DNA of 32,868 nucleotides from Candidatus Treponema merdequi (lineage in GTDB: Bacteria; Spirochaetota; Spirochaetia; Treponematales; Treponemataceae). How positions within the stretch are numbered: position 1 is the stretch's first letter; every line of letters starts with the position of its first letter. Location: contig JAGHVB010000010.1 in NCBI GenBank assembly GCA_018064525.1, positions 104,684-137,551 on the forward strand, read 5' to 3'. The notes under the pieces were generated by a model. It ran no database searches and was not told the origin of the DNA. It saw only the letters and a program-made list of their open reading frames with translations. Position numbers and translations under genes: made by a program. Below are positions 6,551 through 32,777 of this stretch, in pieces.

Positions 6551-7228
6551 CTAGCATAAAAGACCATCCAGAATTTTTATACATCGCTTTGTTGATTTTC
6601 CGATGCGCGGATCATGAGTGACAATAATAATTGTTGTTCCGCTTTTTTTATTGATTTCTTTAAAAAGATCCATTACCTGAATTCCGGTTGCAGTATCAAG
6701 AGCACCAGTCGGTTCATCTGCCAGAATTATTTTTGGTTCTGTAACAATTGCTCTAGCAATTGCAACTCGCTGTTTCTGACCACCAGAAAGCTCATTCGGA
6801 AGATGATACATTCTTTCTGAAAGTCCTACTTTATCAAGAGCTTTTTCTGCAAGTTCAACACGAATGCGTTTTTCTATACGTTTATATTTTAAAGGCAGCA
6901 TTACATTTTCAATTACATTCATTCCAGGAATAAGATGATACTGCTGAAAAACAAAACCGATTGTCTGATTTCTTAAAACTGCAAGTTCTGTTTCTGACAT
7001 CTTTGAAGTTTCTTTATCATCAATTTTAACAATTCCGCTCGTCGGAGTATCAAGACAACCAATCATATTCATACATGTTGACTTTCCGGAACCAGAAGGT
7101 CCCATTATTGAAATAAATTCACCCTGTTCCACTTCGAAGCTCACGCCTCTCAATGCCTGAACTTCGGCGTCACCCATTGAGTAAATTTTTTTTACATTTT
7201 CAAGCTGTACAACAATATTTTTTTTCAT
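6551..7228 (-). CDS. MacB/LolD-type ABC transporter ATPase
   Basis: A 225-residue nucleotide-binding subunit that would power the neighbouring permease. It has Walker A GPSGSGKST at 43-51, Q-loop Gln95, signature LSGGQ at 147-151, Walker B IILADE at 167-172, and the H-loop His205 in VTHD. The segment IENVMLPLKYK is typical of the LolD/MacB group. The length is that of a stand-alone ATPase, so here ATPase and permease are separate chains, unlike E. coli MacB. The gene starts 13 nt after the hlyD-like gene and has only a weak ribosome-binding site, so it is probably coupled to it. Confidence 0.95.
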   Translation of the reverse strand: MKKNIVVQLENVKKIYSMGDAEVQALRGVSFEVEQGEFISIMGPSGSGKSTCMNMIGCLDTPTSGIVKIDDKETSKMSETELAVLRNQTIGFVFQQYHLIPGMNVIENVMLPLKYKRIEKRIRVELAEKALDKVGLSERMYHLPNELSGGQKQRVAIARAIVTEPKIILADEPTGALDTATGIQVMDLFKEINKKSGTTIIIVTHDPRIGKSTKRCIKILDGLLC

Positions 7229-13779: not shown

Positions 13780-13875
13780 TACTCCTCCAAAGATTTAATG
13801 TAAAAAAAATTAAAGTATTATATAATTATACAAAACATTATTTACTTAGTATAGCGATTTTTGAGAGGTTTTATT
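13780..13875. promoter_or_regulatory. Divergent promoter region between the FecR cluster and the CHASE2 cyclase
   Basis: This very AT-rich 96-bp gap contains TATAAT on the plus strand at 13821-13826 and two overlapping TATAAT-like boxes read on the minus strand around 13816-13831. Good -35 boxes are not obvious for either direction. For the cyclase, GAGAGG at 13863-13868 is its Shine-Dalgarno. Confidence 0.4.
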
Positions 13876-16605
13876 TTGAAAAAATATCTTACACATGTCA
13901 TTTCTTTTGCACTGATTCTTCTTTTATCTGTTCTTACAGCGTCTGGAATTTTTGAAAAATTTGATTTTAAATTTTTTGATATTCTTCTCTCACTGACCAG
14001 AACACCTGCCGAAGCTCCTGAAATTTTACTTGTTGAAGCAGATAACATTTCAATAGATTCCATCGGGCCATGGCCATGGAAAAGAGATGTCTATGCAGAC
14101 ATGCTTTTAAGAATGAAAGAATTTGGAGCAGATACTGCCGTTTTTGATATCGAATTTCTTTCTGAATCAAACTTTCCGGAATGTGATGACTATCTCGCTC
14201 GTTCAATTCAATTTTTTGATAAAACTTATTTAACTATAAATACTAAAGACCTTGATCTCCACTATACAGATGACGATATCACATACGCAGAAAAAAGATT
14301 TCTCTCTCCTGTCGATGGAGACATGAAAAAAAACAGACATGACAACAACATCACTTCCTATGAATCTGTAAACAACTCAATTTTCGGTTTTAACAAAATT
14401 AACTGGGAAGATGAAAAATCAAGATTCTATTACGGAATCGGATTTTCACCAGCATTAAACAGCTTCCTTTCCAGAGCAAAAGGCGCGGGTTTTGCAAATA
14501 CAATCATCGATAAAGATGGTTCAAGAAGGCGCGTAGAACTTTTAAATAATCAGAACAGAACAGAACTTCCGCTGAAACAGATTATTCTCGCACCTGTTCT
14601 TGATAAATTACAACCGGAAAAGGTAATCAGAACAAAAAATAAATTGATATTACAAAATGCAGTAATCAACGGTAAAAAAACAACAATAAAAATTCCGCTC
14701 GATCAATATGGCAGAATGATAATCAACTGGACCCACAAAACTTCAAACGAAGCATTCAGACATGACAGCATTATGTTTTTCAATATGCTCCGGAATACAG
14801 AAGACAATATTTTTGAAATTACAAAACGGTTGATCGAACTTACAGACAGTTTAAATGAATACAGACAAGACTGTGCAGTTTCATTTACAGAAAATGCGTA
14901 TAACCTTTATTCTGCATATTCTGAAATTCTTGATTTTAAGGATTTTCTCCTTTCAATCTGTGAAGGTCTTGATGAAAATTCAAATGCAATCAACGGTGGA
15001 GTTTCCGACGAATATCTTTCTCAATATTTTGAACTTCGAAAAAATTATTTTTCTTCGGTAACTGATTATGTTAATAACGGAGACTTTGATAAAATATTAT
15101 CACTTGTAGAAAACCTGCGTTCAAAAACCGGAAACGACATTTATCTCAACTTAACTTCCGAATTTAGAGAACTGTTTGAAATTTTAAAAAATGAAATCAC
15201 TTTATACAATGAAGTCTTTGAAGAAAAATCTCTGCTTTACAAAAATGCTTTCTGCATAATCGGAAATACAGCAAGTTCTTCTACAGATTACGGAATTACT
15301 CCTTTCGAAAGAATCTATCCAAACATGGGAACTCATGCAAATGTCTATAACACAATTATAAACAAAAATTTCATAACACCTTTGCACTGGATATGGGGCG
15401 TATTGATCATTTCAATTTTATTTTTTGTCCAGCTTGTATTTACAAAAAAGAAACGTCCTTTTATACAGAACATAACTGGAATTTCAGTAATTCTTCTTTC
15501 TGTTTTAATTTCATTTATCTTTATCAGATATTTTTCAATTTATCTTCCAGCATTTACACCTTTATTGATTTCTTTTACATGTTACCTCTCTACAACAGTC
15601 ATCCGCTTTGCAACTGCAGAAAAAGATAAAAAGTTTTTACAGACAACATTCGGAGCCTATGTTGCGCCTGCAGTTGTTGATCAGATTGTAAAACATCCGG
15701 AGCTTGCAAGTTTAGGCGGCAAAAGTGAATACCTTACAGCGCTTTTTTCTGATGTAAAAACTTTTTCCGGTTTTACAGAAGTAATAAATAATGAAGCCGG
15801 AGAAGACAAAGGTGCTGAAAAACTTGTAGAAATTCTTAACGAATATCTTGGTGTTTTAAGCGATGCAATTATGGATCAGAGTGGAACTATCGACAAATAT
15901 GTCGGTGATGAAATCGTATCTTTCTTTGGCGCTCCGATTCCAGTTGAAAACAACGCATTCAATGCTTGCGTCGCAGCAATCAGAATGCTTGAAGCAGAAA
16001 AAGAATTCAATGAAAAAAATAAAGACAGACTTCCATTAAATCCAAAAACAGGTGAACCGTTCTGGCTCAGAAGCCGCGTCGGTTTAAATACAGGAAACAT
16101 GGTAGTCGGAAATATGGGAACAAAAAAGAAACTCAACTACACAATCATGGGAAACAACGTAAACCTCGCTAGCCGCCTCGAAGGAACAAACAAAGTTTAC
16201 GGCTCATGGATTATGTGTTCAGAAGCAACATGGAAAATGGCAAACGAAGGAAGCTGCAAAGGAAAACTTGTTGCAAGAAAGTTTGACAATGTACGCGTAA
16301 TCAATGTTAAAAAGCCAGTTGGAATTTACAACATACTCGGTCTCAAAGATGAAATGCCGGAAGAACAGATTGAAGCTGCAGAAGTATTTAATGAAGCAAT
16401 TGAAATCTATCTGAAAGGAAGCGACACACCGGAAGTTCCAAAGAAAATTTCAGAACTCAAAGAAGCATACGAATTATTTAAAAAAGCCGATGCACTTTAT
16501 CCAGAAGACCTTTCATCAAAAGTCTTCATGGACCGATGCACCGGCTTTATTAAAGACGGCGTCCCAGAAATCTGGGACGGTGTCTTTACAATGAAGAGCA
16601 AATAG
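13876..16605 (+). CDS. CHASE2-domain class III adenylate cyclase
   Basis: The start is a TTG at 13876, with GAGAGG 7 nt upstream and a clean N-terminal helix (MKKYLTHVISFALILLLSVLTASG); this gives 909 residues. An earlier in-frame TTG at 13861 would place the Shine-Dalgarno inside the gene. An extracytoplasmic CHASE2 sensor (about 25-500) carries a long helical insert (about 295-455) and is followed by three TM helices (about 502-522, 533-553, 555-578). The cyclase domain spans about 610-825. It keeps metal-binding Asp626 (FSDVKTF) and Asp678 (YVGDE), Lys674 and Thr756 for adenine selection, and Asn763 and Arg767 (NLASR). It should therefore make cAMP. The C-terminal tail is helical and TPR-like. 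It is divergent from the FecR cluster. A strong hairpin lies in its last codons. Confidence 0.92.
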   Translation: MKKYLTHVISFALILLLSVLTASGIFEKFDFKFFDILLSLTRTPAEAPEILLVEADNISIDSIGPWPWKRDVYADMLLRMKEFGADTAVFDIEFLSESNFPECDDYLARSIQFFDKTYLTINTKDLDLHYTDDDITYAEKRFLSPVDGDMKKNRHDNNITSYESVNNSIFGFNKINWEDEKSRFYYGIGFSPALNSFLSRAKGAGFANTIIDKDGSRRRVELLNNQNRTELPLKQIILAPVLDKLQPEKVIRTKNKLILQNAVINGKKTTIKIPLDQYGRMIINWTHKTSNEAFRHDSIMFFNMLRNTEDNIFEITKRLIELTDSLNEYRQDCAVSFTENAYNLYSAYSEILDFKDFLLSICEGLDENSNAINGGVSDEYLSQYFELRKNYFSSVTDYVNNGDFDKILSLVENLRSKTGNDIYLNLTSEFRELFEILKNEITLYNEVFEEKSLLYKNAFCIIGNTASSSTDYGITPFERIYPNMGTHANVYNTIINKNFITPLHWIWGVLIISILFFVQLVFTKKKRPFIQNITGISVILLSVLISFIFIRYFSIYLPAFTPLLISFTCYLSTTVIRFATAEKDKKFLQTTFGAYVAPAVVDQIVKHPELASLGGKSEYLTALFSDVKTFSGFTEVINNEAGEDKGAEKLVEILNEYLGVLSDAIMDQSGTIDKYVGDEIVSFFGAPIPVENNAFNACVAAIRMLEAEKEFNEKNKDRLPLNPKTGEPFWLRSRVGLNTGNMVVGNMGTKKKLNYTIMGNNVNLASRLEGTNKVYGSWIMCSEATWKMANEGSCKGKLVARKFDNVRVINVKKPVGIYNILGLKDEMPEEQIEAAEVFNEAIEIYLKGSDTPEVPKKISELKEAYELFKKADALYPEDLSSKVFMDRCTGFIKDGVPEIWDGVFTMKSK
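16552..16587. repeat. Strong hairpin inside the 3' end of the cyclase gene
   Basis: CGTCCCAGA (16560-16568) and TCTGGGACG (16571-16579) pair perfectly around AA. After one mismatch and a G-T pair the stem extends through AAAGAC (16552-16557) and GTCTTT (16582-16587). It is coding sequence, 18 nt before the stop, and only 10 bp separate this stop from the convergent lipoprotein stop. No T-run follows on either strand. Confidence 0.6.
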
Positions 16606-23238: not shown

Positions 23239-25290
23239 ATGTCATACAGAGTTGGACTTATATTAAAATATCTCGATGAAGACTATCAGGCAACAATTTT
23301 CAAAGGAGCTGCAGAAGAAGCACAAAAGCTCGGGATAGAAATCATCTGCATACAGGGAGATGTATTTGACGGTTCTCCTTCTTCGGAATCAAACTGTTCA
23401 TTTGTAACTTCATGGTCTGAACTCGAATTGGATGGAATAATTTTTCTGTCCGGGATTCTCTTAAACAATGCTTCGTATGACGTTTCACAAAAACTAAAGA
23501 AAGTTTTTAAAAATATTCCACTTGTTTCAATCGGAACTGTTCTTGACGATTTTCCATCAGTTATCTGCGAATCAAAAGATTCTATTGAAAAACTGCTTGA
23601 CCATTTAATACAGCACCATAATTACAGAAATTTTCTTTATCTGGGAGGTCCTGTATACAACGAAGATAACAACAGCCGCCAAAAAATAATTTCTGACTAC
23701 ATCAGCTTACAGAATAAAAAATCAAAGAATCAATTTTCACTTGAAATACAAAACGGATTTCTTTTCAGTGAATCCGATGGTCTTCGTCTGATTGAAGAAT
23801 ATTGCAACGAAAATCCTGTCAGAAAAATTGATGCCATTCTCGCAGGAAGTGATGATATGGCTTCTGGAATTTCAAAATATCTAAGATCTATCGCACCGGA
23901 TTCATACAGAAATTGTCCTATAACAGGTTTTGACAATATTCCACTTGCACAGACACAGCAGCTTTCATTAACAACAATTGACCAGCCGACTGAACAGATG
24001 GGAGCAAAAGCCGTTGATACAATTTTTGATATTCTACTTAATAAAAAAACAGAAAAACTTATAAAAGTCTCTGCCAGAACAATCATAAGAAATTCATGCG
24101 GTTGTTCTGAATTTCATAAACATTTTTCCGATGAAGAATCTCTAAACCCGCTTCAGCGCGAACAGTTTATGAGAGATGTTGCTTACTTTGGTCAGGAAAT
24201 TGCCTGCGCTTCTGATTTTGAAAAAATAAAAAATCCGTTAAAAGAACTGCTGACAAATGTTGCCTGCAAAGATTTTTCATTAATTCTTTTTCCAGAACCT
24301 GTTGAATACATTTTTGACAAAGGCTTTTTAACAGTTCAGATAAATAATTTTACAATTAATGAAACTAAAAATAATGATTCCAGTCATAAACTTCAGAATA
24401 CAAAAGACATTTTTTCTGAAATATTTAAAACAAAAGCTGATCCGAAAACTCCGAGATGTATCTACCAGCTCCGTGTAGGAGAACGAAGACTCGGCTTTAT
24501 TGTATATTCAGCAAATCTTAACGCACCGATAAACATGAGTATTGCCGGAATGTTTTTATCTCATGCAATTAACCGAATATACGAATTTAACCAGGAAACA
24601 CTAAAAAGACGAATTGCCGAAGAAGAAGTTTTAAAAATAAGTGACCTTGAAAGATTAAGATTCAGTCTTGATCTTCACGATGATATATGTCAGAGACTTG
24701 CCGCAATGACAATGATCTGCAAAAAAGATTCTGATAAAAACACAACCATGAAAACTTTATTCAATATGGCAAATGAAACTCTTTTACGGACAAGACAATA
24801 TGCCCATGAATCTTTCCCGGTAGAACTGGACTTTTCTGATTTAACGCAAGCTCTTGAAGACCTTTGTGAAGAACTGCAGACAGATGACTGCAGAATTTCA
24901 TTCAACAAAACAGGAAATATATTTTCACTCACTTCGGAACAGAAAATCAATTTATTCCGCATCTCACAGGAAGCAATTCAAAACAGCATAAAACATGCGG
25001 ATGCAAAAAATATTTCTGTTAAATTGATTTATTCTGACATTGAATTAAATCTTATTATTACAGATGATGGAGAAGGATTTAATTCCACTGAAATTTCACA
25101 AAAAACAAACACTCAAAAGCGGAGACCAAAGGGTCTTGGTCTTCGTTCAATGCAATACAGAACAAATCAAATCGGGGGAACATTTAAAATTATTTCACAA
25201 AGTGGTAAAGGTACTTCAATTCAGGTAACAATTCCTCAAAACATTGAACAGAACATTTTTATCAATACCATTAAACAGGATAAAAAATGA
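23239..25290 (+). CDS. Soluble sensor histidine kinase with LacI-type ligand-binding domain
   Basis: A 683-residue protein with no signal peptide or TM helix. Residues 1-285 resemble the LacI/periplasmic-binding-protein core (VGLILKYLDEDYQATIFKG, DAILAGSDDMASGISKYL, ITGFDNIPLAQ, LTTIDQP) but lack the LacI DNA-binding headpiece. A CGC cluster (287-289) ends this part. A linker of about 290-455, perhaps GAF-like, follows. Then comes a HisKA_3 dimerisation segment with phospho-acceptor His480 (LDLHDD), and an HATPase domain with N-box Asn582, DDGEGF at 609-614 and GLGL at 632-635. This is the NarX/DesK class. It probably reads an intracellular sugar or related ligand and phosphorylates the response regulator, whose gene overlaps it by 4 bp. 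Confidence 0.9.
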   Translation: MSYRVGLILKYLDEDYQATIFKGAAEEAQKLGIEIICIQGDVFDGSPSSESNCSFVTSWSELELDGIIFLSGILLNNASYDVSQKLKKVFKNIPLVSIGTVLDDFPSVICESKDSIEKLLDHLIQHHNYRNFLYLGGPVYNEDNNSRQKIISDYISLQNKKSKNQFSLEIQNGFLFSESDGLRLIEEYCNENPVRKIDAILAGSDDMASGISKYLRSIAPDSYRNCPITGFDNIPLAQTQQLSLTTIDQPTEQMGAKAVDTIFDILLNKKTEKLIKVSARTIIRNSCGCSEFHKHFSDEESLNPLQREQFMRDVAYFGQEIACASDFEKIKNPLKELLTNVACKDFSLILFPEPVEYIFDKGFLTVQINNFTINETKNNDSSHKLQNTKDIFSEIFKTKADPKTPRCIYQLRVGERRLGFIVYSANLNAPINMSIAGMFLSHAINRIYEFNQETLKRRIAEEEVLKISDLERLRFSLDLHDDICQRLAAMTMICKKDSDKNTTMKTLFNMANETLLRTRQYAHESFPVELDFSDLTQALEDLCEELQTDDCRISFNKTGNIFSLTSEQKINLFRISQEAIQNSIKHADAKNISVKLIYSDIELNLIITDDGEGFNSTEISQKTNTQKRRPKGLGLRSMQYRTNQIGGTFKIISQSGKGTSIQVTIPQNIEQNIFINTIKQDKK

Positions 25291-25934
25291 AAAGAAAAAT
25301 AGTAATAATTGATGATCATAGTGTTTTCATACAGGGACTTTCGGTACTAATCGAAAGTGACAGCAGTCTTCAGGTAACAGGCTCTGCAACAAATTATGAA
25401 AACGGAATAAAACTCATTCAGGAAAAAAATCCTGATCTTGCAATTGTCGACCTTAATCTTGGAGACAGAGATGGGCTTGATTTAATAAAAGAAATTAATA
25501 CAGAATTTCCAAAAACAAAAATTCTTGTCTTATCAATGATGCAGGAAAGATTTTATTCAGAACGTTCTTTGCAGGCAGGGGCAAAAGGTTATGTTATGAA
25601 AGCAGAAGCCGCTGACACAGTAATCAGTGCAATAAAATCCGTTCTGAATGGAAAAGTCTGGTTAAGTCCTGCAGAACAGAACAGATACATCGACAATCAT
25701 TTTCAGGAACCCCAGGCCGGAACAAGTAATCCGATAGATACTCTTTCAGACAGACAGCTTCAGGTTCTTCGACTTCTGGGACAGGGAAACGGAACTATTG
25801 AAATTGCAAAGCTTTTAAACATAAGCAGTAAAACGGTTGATGCACATAAAGAACAGCTTAAGAAGAAATTAAACTGTAAAAACTCACAGGAACTTCTGCG
25901 TCTTGCAATTTCACAATATCATTCAACAAGATAA
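25287..25934 (+). CDS. NarL/LuxR-family response regulator
   Basis: A 215-residue two-component regulator. The receiver domain (1-120) has acidic residues Asp9 and Asp10, phospho-acceptor Asp55 (AIVDLNLGD), Ser83 and Lys105. The C-terminal LuxR-type helix-turn-helix (about 148-210) reads LSDRQLQVLRLLGQGNGTIEIAKLLNISSKTVDAHKEQLKKKL. Its start overlaps the kinase stop (ATGA), so the pair is coupled and almost certainly cognate. Likely targets include its own promoter region or the divergent deacetylase genes, where a TACCTA-N8-TAGGTA palindrome lies. Its stop codon directly abuts the stop of the convergent cyclase-like gene. Confidence 0.94.
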   Translation: MKRKIVIIDDHSVFIQGLSVLIESDSSLQVTGSATNYENGIKLIQEKNPDLAIVDLNLGDRDGLDLIKEINTEFPKTKILVLSMMQERFYSERSLQAGAKGYVMKAEAADTVISAIKSVLNGKVWLSPAEQNRYIDNHFQEPQAGTSNPIDTLSDRQLQVLRLLGQGNGTIEIAKLLNISSKTVDAHKEQLKKKLNCKNSQELLRLAISQYHSTR

Positions 25935-28181
25935 TTATTTTTTTAATTTCTCAACAGAATACAGGCTGACAGAGTCTTTCTGTTCAGTAACTGCAAAACC
26001 AGAAACTTTTTCTGCTTCCACAGCATCACTGACAAGAAGATATGTATCTTCTGAAATAATTATTTCATTATCAGATTCAGAAGCATAATTCTTTATTTCT
26101 TCTGCAACAGAAACAGTACCGCCTACACATACATATTCATTAAGATTTTCAGTATCAATCTGTCCTGAAACGACAGTTCCTGAATGAAGGCCAAACGCAA
26201 CATTTAATCCCGGTTTAGAATAAGAACCTCTGTCCGAATTATAATCAATCAACGCATACTTCATTCGGAAAATACCTCTTACTGCATTTAACGCGTCACT
26301 CTTTGGAGTTTCATCAGAACCAGGCAGTCCCCATATTGCAGATATTTTACTTCCTGAGACATTAAATATGTGACCTTTACATACCTTTATGCATTTTTCC
26401 ATTTCAGATACATATTCATTAAGAAGATTTAATGTTTCAGAAGCAGAAAGTCCTCTTGTCAGCATATTAAAGTTTTTAATTTCAAAAACCAGAACTGTAG
26501 ATATTTTTGTTTCACCTTTCTGATTTAAGAATATATTTCCGCATTTTTCTGTTTTATCAGGATAAATTGAATTTTCAGAAACTTCTTTTCCTGAATATTC
26601 ATTATTAAGATGTTCACAAAAAACATTAAATTCATTTGCAAGTGCACCGATTTCATCACGTCGGGATGTTTTCAAATCAAAATAAAAATTCTTTTTTACA
26701 GCTCTTTCCAGAGCAGCACGAATTCTGTTAATCAATTTTACAATCGATTTAGAAAAAAGAGTAACAATTATCAATATCAGAATCAGGACAAATGCAGTAC
26801 AGTATGCAATTTTTATCAGAATTGAAACATAATACTTTTCATAATCCGTAAGTTTTTTGTATGCAGCAATACCGGCAGAATAATTTTTCAAACTGCTGAT
26901 CTGAGCAACATATTTTTCATTTTTATATTCAAAATATTTTTTATATGATTTTAACGGATTGTTTATAAAATCATTTACAATATTTAATTCACAGATATTC
27001 TGACAATTCATTACTGTATTAAAATCAGTTCCTGAAATTGCAAAACCTTTATCATCTATTATGAATGCAGAAAAAGAACGTGCTGTATCACAAATATTGT
27101 TCAACACAGAAGTTGAAAACAGTACAGCCATTACTTCATATAAATTTGTTTCAGAATTAAGAACAGGAATTAAAACAACGGCACTTCTCATTTTTACAAT
27201 ATGACTTGTATTTTTAATTATTGTCTTTCCGTTTTTAACTTCCTTGATTTCATTTCCAAAATACGAAAGCACATCACCAAGAAGTTCCTCTTTAATTCCA
27301 TTTGATGAAACAAAATTTTCATTTATAATCTGAATGCCATTCGGTAAACTGATAAATCCAATTTCAGAATTACAGTTAAAGAATGAATTTATGATTTTAC
27401 CTTTATCTTTTGATTTTTTATAAAGTTCACAGAATAGAAAAGAACTTTCAGTTACCGATTTAATTTTTTTATCAGTCAGTTCTGATGCAGTTCTATTGAA
27501 ATTTTCAATATCTTTATTAACAGAAGAATAAACATCCTTACAGATAAAATAAGTCATAATGCCAACTATCAGAAGCAATGACAGAATTACAGAAAAAACA
27601 AAAAACGCATTTATTTTTTTTACAAGCGAACCTTTTGTTTTTACTTTGTTTTTCAATTTTTTATCTTTTGGAACAATATCTTTTTCCTTTACGGCATTTT
27701 TCTGTGTTAAATCAAACTCAGGAAGCAGATATCCTCTTTTTTTCTGGCATTTTACAAAATTACCATAATCCAATAATAAATCTTCACGTTCTTCAGAAAC
27801 ACGTTCTTCAAGTTCATTTATGACATTTGCAGTATAACGTTTCAATGGAATTTCTGTGTTTCCGTTCTGCATTATTACTTCAATGATACATTCATTACCT
27901 TCAAATTTTGTGTTTATGAACAAATCACACTTTTCTTTGGAATCATCATTCTGATTCTGTTTTACCTGTTTGAAAAATTCTTCTTTAACAGAAATCTGTC
28001 CGATTTTATAAATTTTTTCAACTTTATTTTCTGCCTGCATTTTGCAGATGTAAATTGGAATTTCTTTATTAAAAAAATCACTTTTATAGACTTTTACACA
28101 TTTTACTGCATTTCCATCACTATCGATCAATGGAACAAAGTTTTTATTCTGCAATCTGATTCCAATAATAGGTAAAATCAT
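25935..28181 (-). CDS. Membrane-bound degenerate class III cyclase homologue (probable pseudoenzyme)
   Basis: A 748-residue protein: an N-terminal cytoplasmic region of unknown type (1-185), TM1 about 189-213, an extracytoplasmic sensor-like region to about 450, TM2 about 452-476, HAMP about 477-530, and a cyclase-like domain about 555-745. The cyclase fold is recognisable (VLVFEIKNF, HIFNVSGSKISAIWG, FGLHSGTVVSGQI), but active-site positions are lost. The metal-binding Asp residues are Glu567 and Ser611, the adenine-selecting Lys is Asn607 and its partner Val684, and the catalytic Asn and Arg are Ser691 and Glu695. Cyclase activity is therefore unlikely; a regulatory or nucleotide-sensing role is my inference. 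GGAG lies 6 nt before the ATG. It is convergent with the response regulator and downstream of an NSS symporter terminator. Confidence 0.85.
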   Translation of the reverse strand: MILPIIGIRLQNKNFVPLIDSDGNAVKCVKVYKSDFFNKEIPIYICKMQAENKVEKIYKIGQISVKEEFFKQVKQNQNDDSKEKCDLFINTKFEGNECIIEVIMQNGNTEIPLKRYTANVINELEERVSEEREDLLLDYGNFVKCQKKRGYLLPEFDLTQKNAVKEKDIVPKDKKLKNKVKTKGSLVKKINAFFVFSVILSLLLIVGIMTYFICKDVYSSVNKDIENFNRTASELTDKKIKSVTESSFLFCELYKKSKDKGKIINSFFNCNSEIGFISLPNGIQIINENFVSSNGIKEELLGDVLSYFGNEIKEVKNGKTIIKNTSHIVKMRSAVVLIPVLNSETNLYEVMAVLFSTSVLNNICDTARSFSAFIIDDKGFAISGTDFNTVMNCQNICELNIVNDFINNPLKSYKKYFEYKNEKYVAQISSLKNYSAGIAAYKKLTDYEKYYVSILIKIAYCTAFVLILILIIVTLFSKSIVKLINRIRAALERAVKKNFYFDLKTSRRDEIGALANEFNVFCEHLNNEYSGKEVSENSIYPDKTEKCGNIFLNQKGETKISTVLVFEIKNFNMLTRGLSASETLNLLNEYVSEMEKCIKVCKGHIFNVSGSKISAIWGLPGSDETPKSDALNAVRGIFRMKYALIDYNSDRGSYSKPGLNVAFGLHSGTVVSGQIDTENLNEYVCVGGTVSVAEEIKNYASESDNEIIISEDTYLLVSDAVEAEKVSGFAVTEQKDSVSLYSVEKLKK

Positions 28182-28260: not shown

Positions 28261-28311
28261 ACAAAAAACACCTGCAAAACTGAACTTAATTCATTCAATT
28301 TTGCAGGTGTT
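28261..28311 (-). terminator. Rho-independent terminator after the NSS symporter
   Basis: Arms 28267-28284 and 28294-28311 are 18-bp inverted copies with one mismatch (AACACCTGCAAAA core). On the minus strand the stem runs into six T (28268-28263). It lies 49 nt beyond the symporter stop. Confidence 0.9.
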
Positions 28312-30740: not shown

Positions 30741-31016
30741 TTATTTCTTTGCAGCTGGTTTTTTAGCAGGTGCTTTTTTTGCAGCTGGTTTTTTAGCTGC
30801 TGTTTTTTTTGCAGGTGCTTTTTTAGCTACTGCTTTTTTTGCAGGTGCTTTTTTAGCTACTGCTTTTTTAGCTGCTGGTTTTTTTGCAGCTGGTTTTTTA
30901 GCTGCTGGTTTCTTTGCAGCTGGTTTTTTAGCTGCTGGTTTTTTTGCAGCTGGTTTTTTAGCTGCTGGTTTCTTTGCAGCTGGTTTTTTAGCTGCTGGCT
31001 TTTTAGTTTCTGCCAT
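30741..31016 (-). CDS. Histone H1-like protein from an internal in-frame start (nested)
   Basis: Internal ATG at 31016 opens [16 protein letters not shown] and runs 91 residues to the shared stop. AAAGGGGG lies 5 nt before it, a good Shine-Dalgarno allowing one G-U pair, in what would otherwise be coding sequence. The product is almost only Lys, Ala, Pro and Val, extremely basic, without an ordered domain. It resembles the C-terminal tail of eukaryotic H1 and the Hc1- and AlgP-like proteins of bacteria, which bind and compact DNA. I infer that it is an independent nucleoid protein, made from the acyl-CoA synthetase mRNA or from an unseen internal promoter. Whether the long fusion, the short form or both exist is open. 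Confidence 0.7.
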
Positions 31017-32765
31017 GTCGTCCCCCTTTGACGTAATTGACAAATTACGCTTAATTTTCCTTGTTGTAGTCATTTCAAGAGCCTTATCCAGAACTATAAT
31101 CCTGGAAATTCGGGCATAAGGCTGTAATGTCTTATTTACTTTATCGACAATTGCCTTAATTTCTTCATAGACTATTTTATTTTCTGAAGCGTCTTCACGT
31201 TTTACCTGAAGTCTTGCAAGTAAATCGTTTGAAGGATAAATCAAAGCTTCAATCTCTTCTGACTTATGATCTTTATCGGCAATAAAGCCTCGGACCATTA
31301 TCTGTTCAACATCGTAGTAAAGCTGAAATGAATCTTCAATTTCTTCCGGATAAACGTTTTTTCCGCCATCAGTTACAATAATATTTTTTGCACGTCCAGA
31401 AAGCATAAGATAATGTTCTCTGTCCATCCAACCAAGATCGCCTGTTTTAAAGAAACCGTCTTCAGTAAATACCTTTTTTGTTTCCTCAGGCATGTTATAG
31501 TAGCCCTGCATTACCATAGGACCTTTAACTACTATTTCCCCAATTCCCTCCTCATTTTTGTTGATGATTTTGATTTCTTCCCATGGAGAAAAATCAAGTC
31601 CGACACTTTCTGCTTTAAAGTGTTCCAAAGGATTTAAAGTGATGATTGGAGAAGTTTCTGTAAGACCATATCCCTGTATAAAATCAATTCCTAATGCATT
31701 GTAACCTTTGACCACGCTTGGAGCAAGAGGACCACCACCACAAATCGCAACGCGTACTGTTGAAATATTTGCGGCTTCAAGAATTGATTTTAATAGAACA
31801 CGTCCAATATTTTTTCCTGTCATTTTTTTAATTAAATAACAGAAATTAATAAGAAGTTTAACTATAACTTTAACAAAATTACCTTTTGACTCAATTCCTT
31901 TCATAATTCCAGTCAAAAGTTTGTTATATAAAAGTGGAACGCCAAGCATGATTGTTATTCCACCTTCACGAAGTTCTTTCATAAGACGGCTTACTGCCAT
32001 GCTTTTTCCAAACACAATCGATGCTCCGCTTGATAACGGATTGATAAGCGCAGCCTGCATTGTATAACCATGATGAATTGGAAGCAAAGCATAAAAGACA
32101 TCTTTTTCTGTATGAATAAGATTTGACTGTGCAATAAAACAGTCAGAAACAAGATTTTCATGACTCAGCATTACACCTTTAGGAGAACCTGTTGTTCCTG
32201 ATGTAAAAAGGATTGCTGCTGTATCTTTGTAATTTACTTTTTTGAACTCTGCTTTTTTTACTGATTTTAAATTGTAAACATATTTGTCAGCAATTTTTTT
32301 TGAAATGGAATATATTCTGCACGAAGTTTTCTTTTTTGAATAAACAAGATATTTTTCTTCATCTACGAAAAACAATACAGGTTTTGCAGCCTGTAAAAGA
32401 TTATCGATTTCTCTTTCATGAAGCGCACAATCAATCGGAACTATAATTGCACCTGCCAGCATTGCAGCAAAATAAGTTGTTGCCCATTCCGGAGAATTTT
32501 TTCCAGAAACTGCAACTCTATCACCCTGCTTTACACCATTGCATATCATCCAGTTTGCAAGGTTTTCGACATTATTCCAAACCTGATTATATGTTAAAAC
32601 ATTTTTTATACCGTTGTCTGTAAAATCGATAAAACATGGTCTGTCACCAAAACGAAGTTGAGACACATGTAACATCTCTGGCAATGTTGGCCATGTTGAG
32701 TCAAAAATTTTTCCTCTGAACTCATCTAAAAATTTCCATGCAACTTCTGTTCTAATTGGTTTCAT
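30741..32765 (-). CDS. AMP-forming acyl-CoA synthetase fused in frame to a histone H1-like Lys/Ala/Pro tail
   Basis: The start is ATG 32765, with GAGG 6 nt upstream, giving 674 residues ([12 protein letters not shown]). Residues 1-574 form a complete adenylate-forming enzyme: the P-loop [10 protein letters not shown] at 188-197, YGLTETSP at 366-373, TGDLG at 441-445, and the C-terminal TTTRKIKRN at 566-574 with the probable catalytic Lys570. It should activate a carboxylate, probably a fatty acid, to acyl-AMP and acyl-CoA. The usual enzyme end is reached at about 574. After a nine-residue linker, Met584 begins 91 residues of repeating KPAAK-type units, as in bacterial H1-like DNA-binding proteins. 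No stop codon separates them. An ATG with a Shine-Dalgarno at the junction suggests that the tail is also made alone. The codon just before the junction is one base from a stop. Confidence 0.85.
30811..30870. repeat. Two 30-bp tandem units in the H1-like coding region
   Basis: 30811-30840 and 30841-30870 differ at one base (29 of 30 identical), each starting GCAGGTGCTTTTTTAGC. They encode [10 protein letters not shown] units. Confidence 0.85.
30871..30990. repeat. Perfect 60-bp tandem duplication in the H1-like coding region
   Basis: Four 30-bp units that start GCTGCTGGTTT lie end to end. Units 1 and 3 are identical and units 2 and 4 are identical, differing from the others by a single T to C, so 30871-30930 and 30931-30990 are exact 60-bp copies. 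Each 60 bp encodes 20 residues of KPAAK repeats. Confidence 0.92.
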
Positions 32766-32777
32766 CAAATTCCTCAA

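Follow-up and report, generated by a model that had tools for sequence, protein, structure and literature searches.

A membrane receptor of Candidatus Treponema merdequi whose class III cyclase domain has lost its catalytic residues

We analysed a stretch of 32,868 nucleotides (the window) from the 2.70-Mb genome of Candidatus Treponema merdequi (G000) and found, on contig C78 of that genome, a gene for a receptor-like protein whose class III cyclase domain has replaced all six catalytic residues. We consider this protein, hereafter the pseudo-cyclase, to be probably a real pseudoenzyme, in which fold and reading frame are under purifying selection while the catalytic residues have been lost. 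The explanation that we favour, with somewhat more confidence than doubt, is a catalysis-free receptor derived from a dCache-HAMP adenylate/guanylate cyclase, which most likely works through protein contacts of its cytosolic domains. Pseudoenzymes are well studied among kinases, but descriptions of them in the class III cyclases of bacteria are scarce. A literature search, with subscription journals mostly outside its scope, found no characterised bacterial class III pseudo-cyclase of this kind.

Domain architecture and active site

The pseudo-cyclase gene (Table 1) starts with ATG and encodes 748 amino acids free of frameshifts, in agreement with the first-pass annotation of the window. Its hydropathy profile shows two hydrophobic segments (approximately residues 190-215 and 450-485), the first of them separated by a linker from an N-terminal domain (residues 1 to about 140), and a HAMP domain, 33% identical between orthologues, follows the second helix with a score marginally above the Pfam cut-off. 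The Guanylate_cyc profile matches residues 562-732 (7e-12, 45.7 bits against a cut-off of 21.9). A Pfam search of the pseudo-cyclase gave no match to dCache, and dCache_1 was found weakly and under the cut-off (E 2e-4 to 9e-3) in the relatives aligned with it; residues 188-743 align with dCache-HAMP cyclases, covering the sensor region along its length. The transmembrane helices, sensor and HAMP had been annotated as intact, which stands for the two hydrophobic segments and for HAMP, whereas the sensor is recognised by homology and not by Pfam; the cytosolic N-terminal domain had been overlooked.

Table 1. Features of the pseudo-cyclase gene and its surroundings (window coordinates unless a genome is named), and tandem cyclases of this and related genomes
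Feature	Location	Strand	Basis or remark
Pseudo-cyclase receptor gene	25935..28181	-	748 codons + stop; intact ORF; orthologue at L043 4668-6926 (G007)
N-terminal cytosolic domain, residues 1-130	27792..28181	-	AlphaFold2 + structure comparison; probably Hsp70 substrate-binding (beta-sandwich) like
Transmembrane helix 1, ~residues 191-213	27543..27611	-	Hydropathy
Extracytoplasmic sensor, ~residues 214-450	26832..27542	-	dCache-like by homology
Transmembrane helix 2, ~residues 451-475	26757..26831	-	Hydropathy
HAMP, residues 475-525	26607..26759	-	Pfam PF00672, 25.1 bits, cut-off 25
Class III cyclase homology domain, residues 559-745, catalytically dead	25947..26507	-	Pfam PF00211, 45.7 bits; AlphaFold2; PDB matches
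E567, replaces metal Asp 1	26481..26483	-	Alignments
N607, replaces adenine-selecting Lys	26361..26363	-	Alignments
S611, replaces metal Asp 2	26349..26351	-	Alignments
V684, replaces Asp/Thr/Ser partner	26130..26132	-	Alignments
S691, replaces catalytic Asn	26109..26111	-	Alignments
E695, replaces transition-state Arg	26097..26099	-	Alignments
LuxR-type response regulator	25287..25934	+	Convergent; stop abuts pseudo-cyclase stop; same in L043
LacI-type sugar-sensor histidine kinase	23239..25290	+	Same pairing in L043; absent at G046 locus
Terminator-like hairpin	28267..28311	-	After symporter gene, upstream of pseudo-cyclase; 3 found, 0.6 expected
7TMR-DISM pair	G046 C18, L192 2339-4318 and 4317-6341	-	
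7TMR-DISM pair	G007 C118, L191 1969-3939, 3936-5894		
7TMR-DISM receptor cyclases	G000 C73/C29 (L188, L232); L213-L230		

We placed the six catalytic positions using phmmer alignments to CyaB (3r5g), Cya2 (2w01) and CyaC (1wc1) together with a 32-row alignment. Across the 30 sequences used for comparison, 100% invariance held in five columns, and the sixth always contained Ser or Thr; in the pseudo-cyclase all six are replaced (E567, N607, S611, V684, S691 and E695), residue by residue as had been annotated. AlphaFold2 predicted a confident class III fold for the cyclase domain (pLDDT 86, pTM 0.82) from an input alignment rich in active cyclases, which aids the fold and cannot create residues. 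A Foldseek search with this model returned CyaB, CyaC and Cya2 on top (E ~1e-16, TM 0.74-0.81) with Rv1625c ranked below them (E 4e-13), the four PDB cyclases together spanning E 1e-13 to 1e-17 and TM 0.71-0.81. Since the model matches all four, the loss of the residues is not an alignment slip. Structure prediction, which had been proposed as a check on the six positions with CyaC and Rv1625c as references, confirmed the fold.

CyaB from P. aeruginosa, CyaC from Spirulina and Cya2 share the fold of the pseudo-cyclase but are active enzymes carrying both metal Asp residues, the Asn and the Arg, which it lacks. As a member of the fold family the pseudo-cyclase is a class III cyclase by profile score and structure matches (E ~1e-16); as an enzyme it would not be one, having lost the metal Asp pair, the Lys and its Asp/Thr partner, and the Asn and Arg. 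By the established class III mechanism, a site without these residues cannot support two-metal catalysis. From its sequence and modelled fold, the pseudo-cyclase is predicted to be unable to make a cyclic nucleotide.

For the N-terminal region, AlphaFold2 run on three sequences (185 amino acids) predicted a beta-sandwich at residues 1-130 (pTM 0.62, mean pLDDT 65), with pLDDT at 63-86 in most blocks of residues 1-139, 50 at residues 71-80 and below 50 in segment 76-82. Nearly all top rows returned by a structural aligner were Hsp70 substrate-binding domains (SBDs), aligned from DnaK residue 393, with matches that reach Z 9.2, little above the common background, for a model of pLDDT 65. Foldseek results with the same model were weak (E 0.1), a PDB profile search with the domain gave no match, and the hhalign comparison with a Treponema-wide LysM protein that has an Hsp70-SBD-like N-terminus was also weak (P 0.0013, probability 19%). 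We retained the Hsp70-like reading on the strength of the structure comparison, the sequence tests being weak, and regard the modelled domain as probably Hsp70 peptide-binding-like. It resembles the beta part of the Hsp70/DnaK SBD in predicted strand order and in where the domain starts; unlike Hsp70/DnaK, it has no significant sequence match to that family and no ATPase domain, and it is carried on a cyclase receptor. Foldseek also matched the model to SAS-6 and XLF head domains; we discarded these matches, whose rmsd was around 10 or higher. The LysM protein, to which the domain is possibly related, is encoded in the same genome (G000 C9:56714-57061; L046/L049), combines its Hsp70-SBD-like N-terminus with a transmembrane segment and a LysM-like end, and was present in 36 of the 39 genomes searched.

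Orthologues and gene neighbourhood

Searching 200 genomes of the genus and 274 of the family, we found the N-terminal domain of the pseudo-cyclase in three of the 274 family genomes (G000, G007 and G046). A contig search using the single pseudo-cyclase protein found no orthologue; the search using a three-row alignment recovered orthologues in Candidatus Treponema scatequi (G007, locus L043) and Treponema sp. Horse_feces311 (G046, locus L042). The Ca. T. scatequi orthologue is full-length and syntenic (44% identity, 752 codons) and carries E, K, N, T, T and E at the six positions (L010/L043), so that the metal-binding residues, the Asn and the Arg are lost and the Lys and Thr kept. The 839-aa orthologue in Treponema sp. 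Horse_feces311 has all six residues intact. Gene order at L043 is that of the window (acyl-CoA ligase, pyrE, symporter, pseudo-cyclase, response regulator, kinase, deacetylase, fabD, fabG), and at L042 the active cyclase gene adjoins pyrE and the acyl-CoA ligase gene, with fabD 9 kb on; the shared gene order supports orthology.

In a phylogenetic tree, where L003 and L024 are long rows and call for a long-branch caveat, the dead proteins of the window and L043 form one clade with a support of 100/100 and a long stem. We compared the two at 54 near-invariant cyclase positions: 34 are lost in the window protein and 21 in the L043 protein, with 20 losses shared, and the new residues at E567 and E695 are identical in both. 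These identical residues, the nested losses and the tree indicate that the loss is for the most part shared and predates the divergence of the two species. The simplest reading is that the metal-binding residues, the Asn and the Arg were lost in the common ancestor with Ca. T. scatequi, and the Lys and Thr later, in the window lineage. A survey of orthologues for the same substitutions had been suggested, and these are in part conserved: both species have lost four of the six, with the same new residue at two of them, and the remaining two are kept in L043. Partial degeneration is also seen in two other relatives, L021 (N, K, E, T, S, R) and L024 (N, N, D, T, S, Q), whose origin in the tree is separate from the window/L043 clade. 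For the pseudo-cyclase, the loss of catalysis is confined to one small lineage.

The nearest relatives of the pseudo-cyclase are dCache-HAMP cyclases, for example the genome's own L002. The Treponema dCache-HAMP cyclases L002 and L013/L042 share its TM-sensor-TM-HAMP-cyclase order and align with it from end to end, and L013, from Treponema sp. Horse_feces311, also shares its N-terminal domain and its pyrE/fabD neighbourhood. In L002 and L013/L042 the six residues are kept and a FecR-domain gene comes next, and the pseudo-cyclase has neither. A FecR-domain gene lies directly downstream of every testable intact relative (28 of 28) versus one of four degenerate relatives (Fisher P 0.0008, or 0.006 with the two orthologues counted once). 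It is absent from the directly downstream position at the window locus and in L010; at L024 the downstream gene is present, and a search of it for a FecR domain found none. In two lineages, FecR is lost where catalysis is lost. With active and dead forms at one locus, the likely order of the losses and the loss of FecR can be read directly and tested.

The first-pass annotation had suggested that the protein tunes a CHASE2 cyclase encoded 10 kb away. That gene (13861-16605) is intact, but in G046 the orthologue lies midway along a 173-kb contig and the CHASE2 cyclase at 125 kb of another long contig; with this linkage not kept and the nearest relatives of the pseudo-cyclase being dCache-HAMP rather than CHASE2 cyclases, the suggestion is unsupported. 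Elsewhere in the window, the acyl-CoA ligase ORF (30741-32777) ends in a long lysine/alanine-rich (AAKKPAAKK) repeat tail, which is also present in L042 and L043 and may be a fused histone-H1-like tail.

Selection on the pseudo-cyclase

The frames of the window and L043 genes are intact at 748 and 752 codons, and every indel between them is in frame. Between the two, the cyclase domain is free of stops and has a pN/pS of 0.45 (bootstrap 95% 0.36-0.55) and a dN/dS of about 0.25, while pN/pS is 0.36 in the N-terminal domain and 0.72 in the sensor, the fastest-evolving part; identity is 56% in the N-terminal domain, 54% in the cyclase domain, 33% in HAMP and 30% in the sensor. Under simulated neutral drift of 0.3 substitutions per site, the cyclase domain stayed free of stops in 0.2% of runs. 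For the same species pair, dN/dS was 0.01-0.14 in neighbouring genes and 0.07-0.23 in active cyclases, all dN/dS values being approximate as dS is near saturation. At 44% identity against 72-100% for its neighbours, the pseudo-cyclase evolves several times faster than they do, a rate that would also suit partly relaxed selection. Constraint is weaker than on most of the enzymes compared yet clearly present, and it falls on both cytosolic domains and not on the sensor. The proposal that the protein is a pseudoenzyme retained for function gains support from this purifying selection and from the dead, frame-intact orthologue.

Proposed mechanism and alternative explanations

Our proposal assumes the order Hsp70-SBD-like domain, transmembrane helix, dCache-like sensor, transmembrane helix, HAMP and cyclase homology domain, in which the folded, dead cyclase domain would serve as a ligand-controlled dimerisation module and the N-terminal domain would recruit a partner. 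Class III cyclase domains are normally dimeric, with two composite sites. If the pseudo-cyclase paired with an active paralogue, L002 for instance, neither site of the mixed dimer would work, since both the metal half and the Asn/Arg half are missing from the dead domain. Intact cyclase paralogues, L002 among them, are encoded in the host genome, as are cNMP-binding proteins. We infer that the protein would act as a sensor-controlled brake or scaffold; the most economical concrete model would be a brake on a close paralogue, for example L002, and a scaffold built on the N-terminal domain the main alternative to it. Pseudokinases and inactive receptor domains offer a parallel, having likewise kept their fold under selection with the catalytic residues gone. 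The fuller scenario, in which a cyclase of one small Treponema lineage was converted into a catalysis-free receptor that signals by binding proteins via the dead cyclase and Hsp70-like domains, while a sister species has kept the active form at this locus, is one that we advance tentatively, at less than even chances. If true, it would be a traceable natural conversion of an enzyme into a pseudoenzyme in a bacterial second-messenger receptor.

The pseudo-cyclase might instead be a former cyclase decaying towards a pseudogene with no present function, which we judge unlikely though the foremost competitor. Rapid protein divergence, a sensor pN/pS of 0.72 and the loss of the FecR partner gene at the locus would all fit decay, and the same genome contains a truncated cyclase (C14), a cyclase with an in-frame TGA (C62) and the dead L001; cyclase loss being a trend of the lineage, this explanation stays alive. 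Against it are the intact frames in two species with in-frame indels only, and pN/pS values well under 1 for both the cyclase domain and the N-terminal domain. About half as probable in our estimate is a nucleotide sensor that binds but does not turn over ATP, GTP or a cyclic nucleotide, a capacity also raised in the first-pass annotation. The kept fold, and the adenine-selecting Lys and Thr retained in the sister orthologue, would suit such a sensor, but both of these residues are also gone from the window protein, and in both species the metal Asp pair and the Asn are replaced and the Arg is reversed to Glu. Nucleotide binding is disfavoured because the positions that contact phosphate and metal and the transition-state position are gone in both species.

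It is improbable, somewhat more so than nucleotide sensing, that the protein acts together with the convergent LacI-type kinase and response regulator, for instance with their expression coupled where the 3' ends abut. Ca. T. scatequi shares the stop-to-stop arrangement, and the kinase and regulator genes are absent from the locus with the active cyclase (G046), but short distances between genes are common in compact genomes and the arrangement was seen in two closely related genomes only. The stop codons of the pseudo-cyclase and response regulator genes abut exactly at 25934/25935 in the window and at 6926/6927 in L043. Least credible of all, and highly improbable, is one half of a heterodimeric cyclase completed by a partner, by analogy with complementary tandem 7TM cyclases. 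Pairs with complementary half-sites do exist in the host genome and its relatives, but the pseudo-cyclase, with all six residues replaced, retains neither half and can complete neither site. Our preferred reading is the catalysis-free receptor acting by protein contacts.

Other cyclases in the genome and family

Matches to the Guanylate_cyc profile overcount cyclases: all degenerate relatives examined score well above the Pfam cut-off, and the best-scoring cyclase homologue of the genome, L001 (about 150 bits), is dead. L001 (G000 C18:19364-20701) carries S, K, N, D, D and Y, and its family is intact in 13 other species examined; its counterpart in G007 (L155, C152) carries N, K, D, N, D and R, and the dN/dS of this type is 0.21 for the species pair. 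G000 also contains a truncated cyclase remnant (L187, C14:44703-45050) and, on C62 (L189 1929-4256), a gene with an in-frame TGA just before the cyclase domain. A conserved cyclase present in all three genomes (L007, L174 and L179) has its base-selecting Lys changed to Ser and the other five residues intact.

Tandem 7TMR-DISM receptor cyclases (Table 1) split the active site between them, one half carrying D, K and D without the Thr and Asn and mostly without the Arg, and the other keeping Thr, Asn and Arg with the metal-binding residues lost. From its sequences, such a pair looks like a bacterial heterodimeric membrane cyclase. The literature search, again with subscription journals mostly outside its scope, found no tandem complementary cyclase pair, and the 7TMR-DISM pair merits separate study. 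Relatives were found in 66 of 274 Treponemataceae genomes from nine genera, mostly as adjacent pairs. Two pairs are fused, L221 (G246 C1:682700-687000, 1314 aa) and L228 (G206 C106:35900-40000, 1272 aa), each holding two membrane parts and two cyclase domains, a layout that recalls the mammalian membrane adenylyl cyclases. In one subgroup (L213-L218 and L230), both halves are degenerate.
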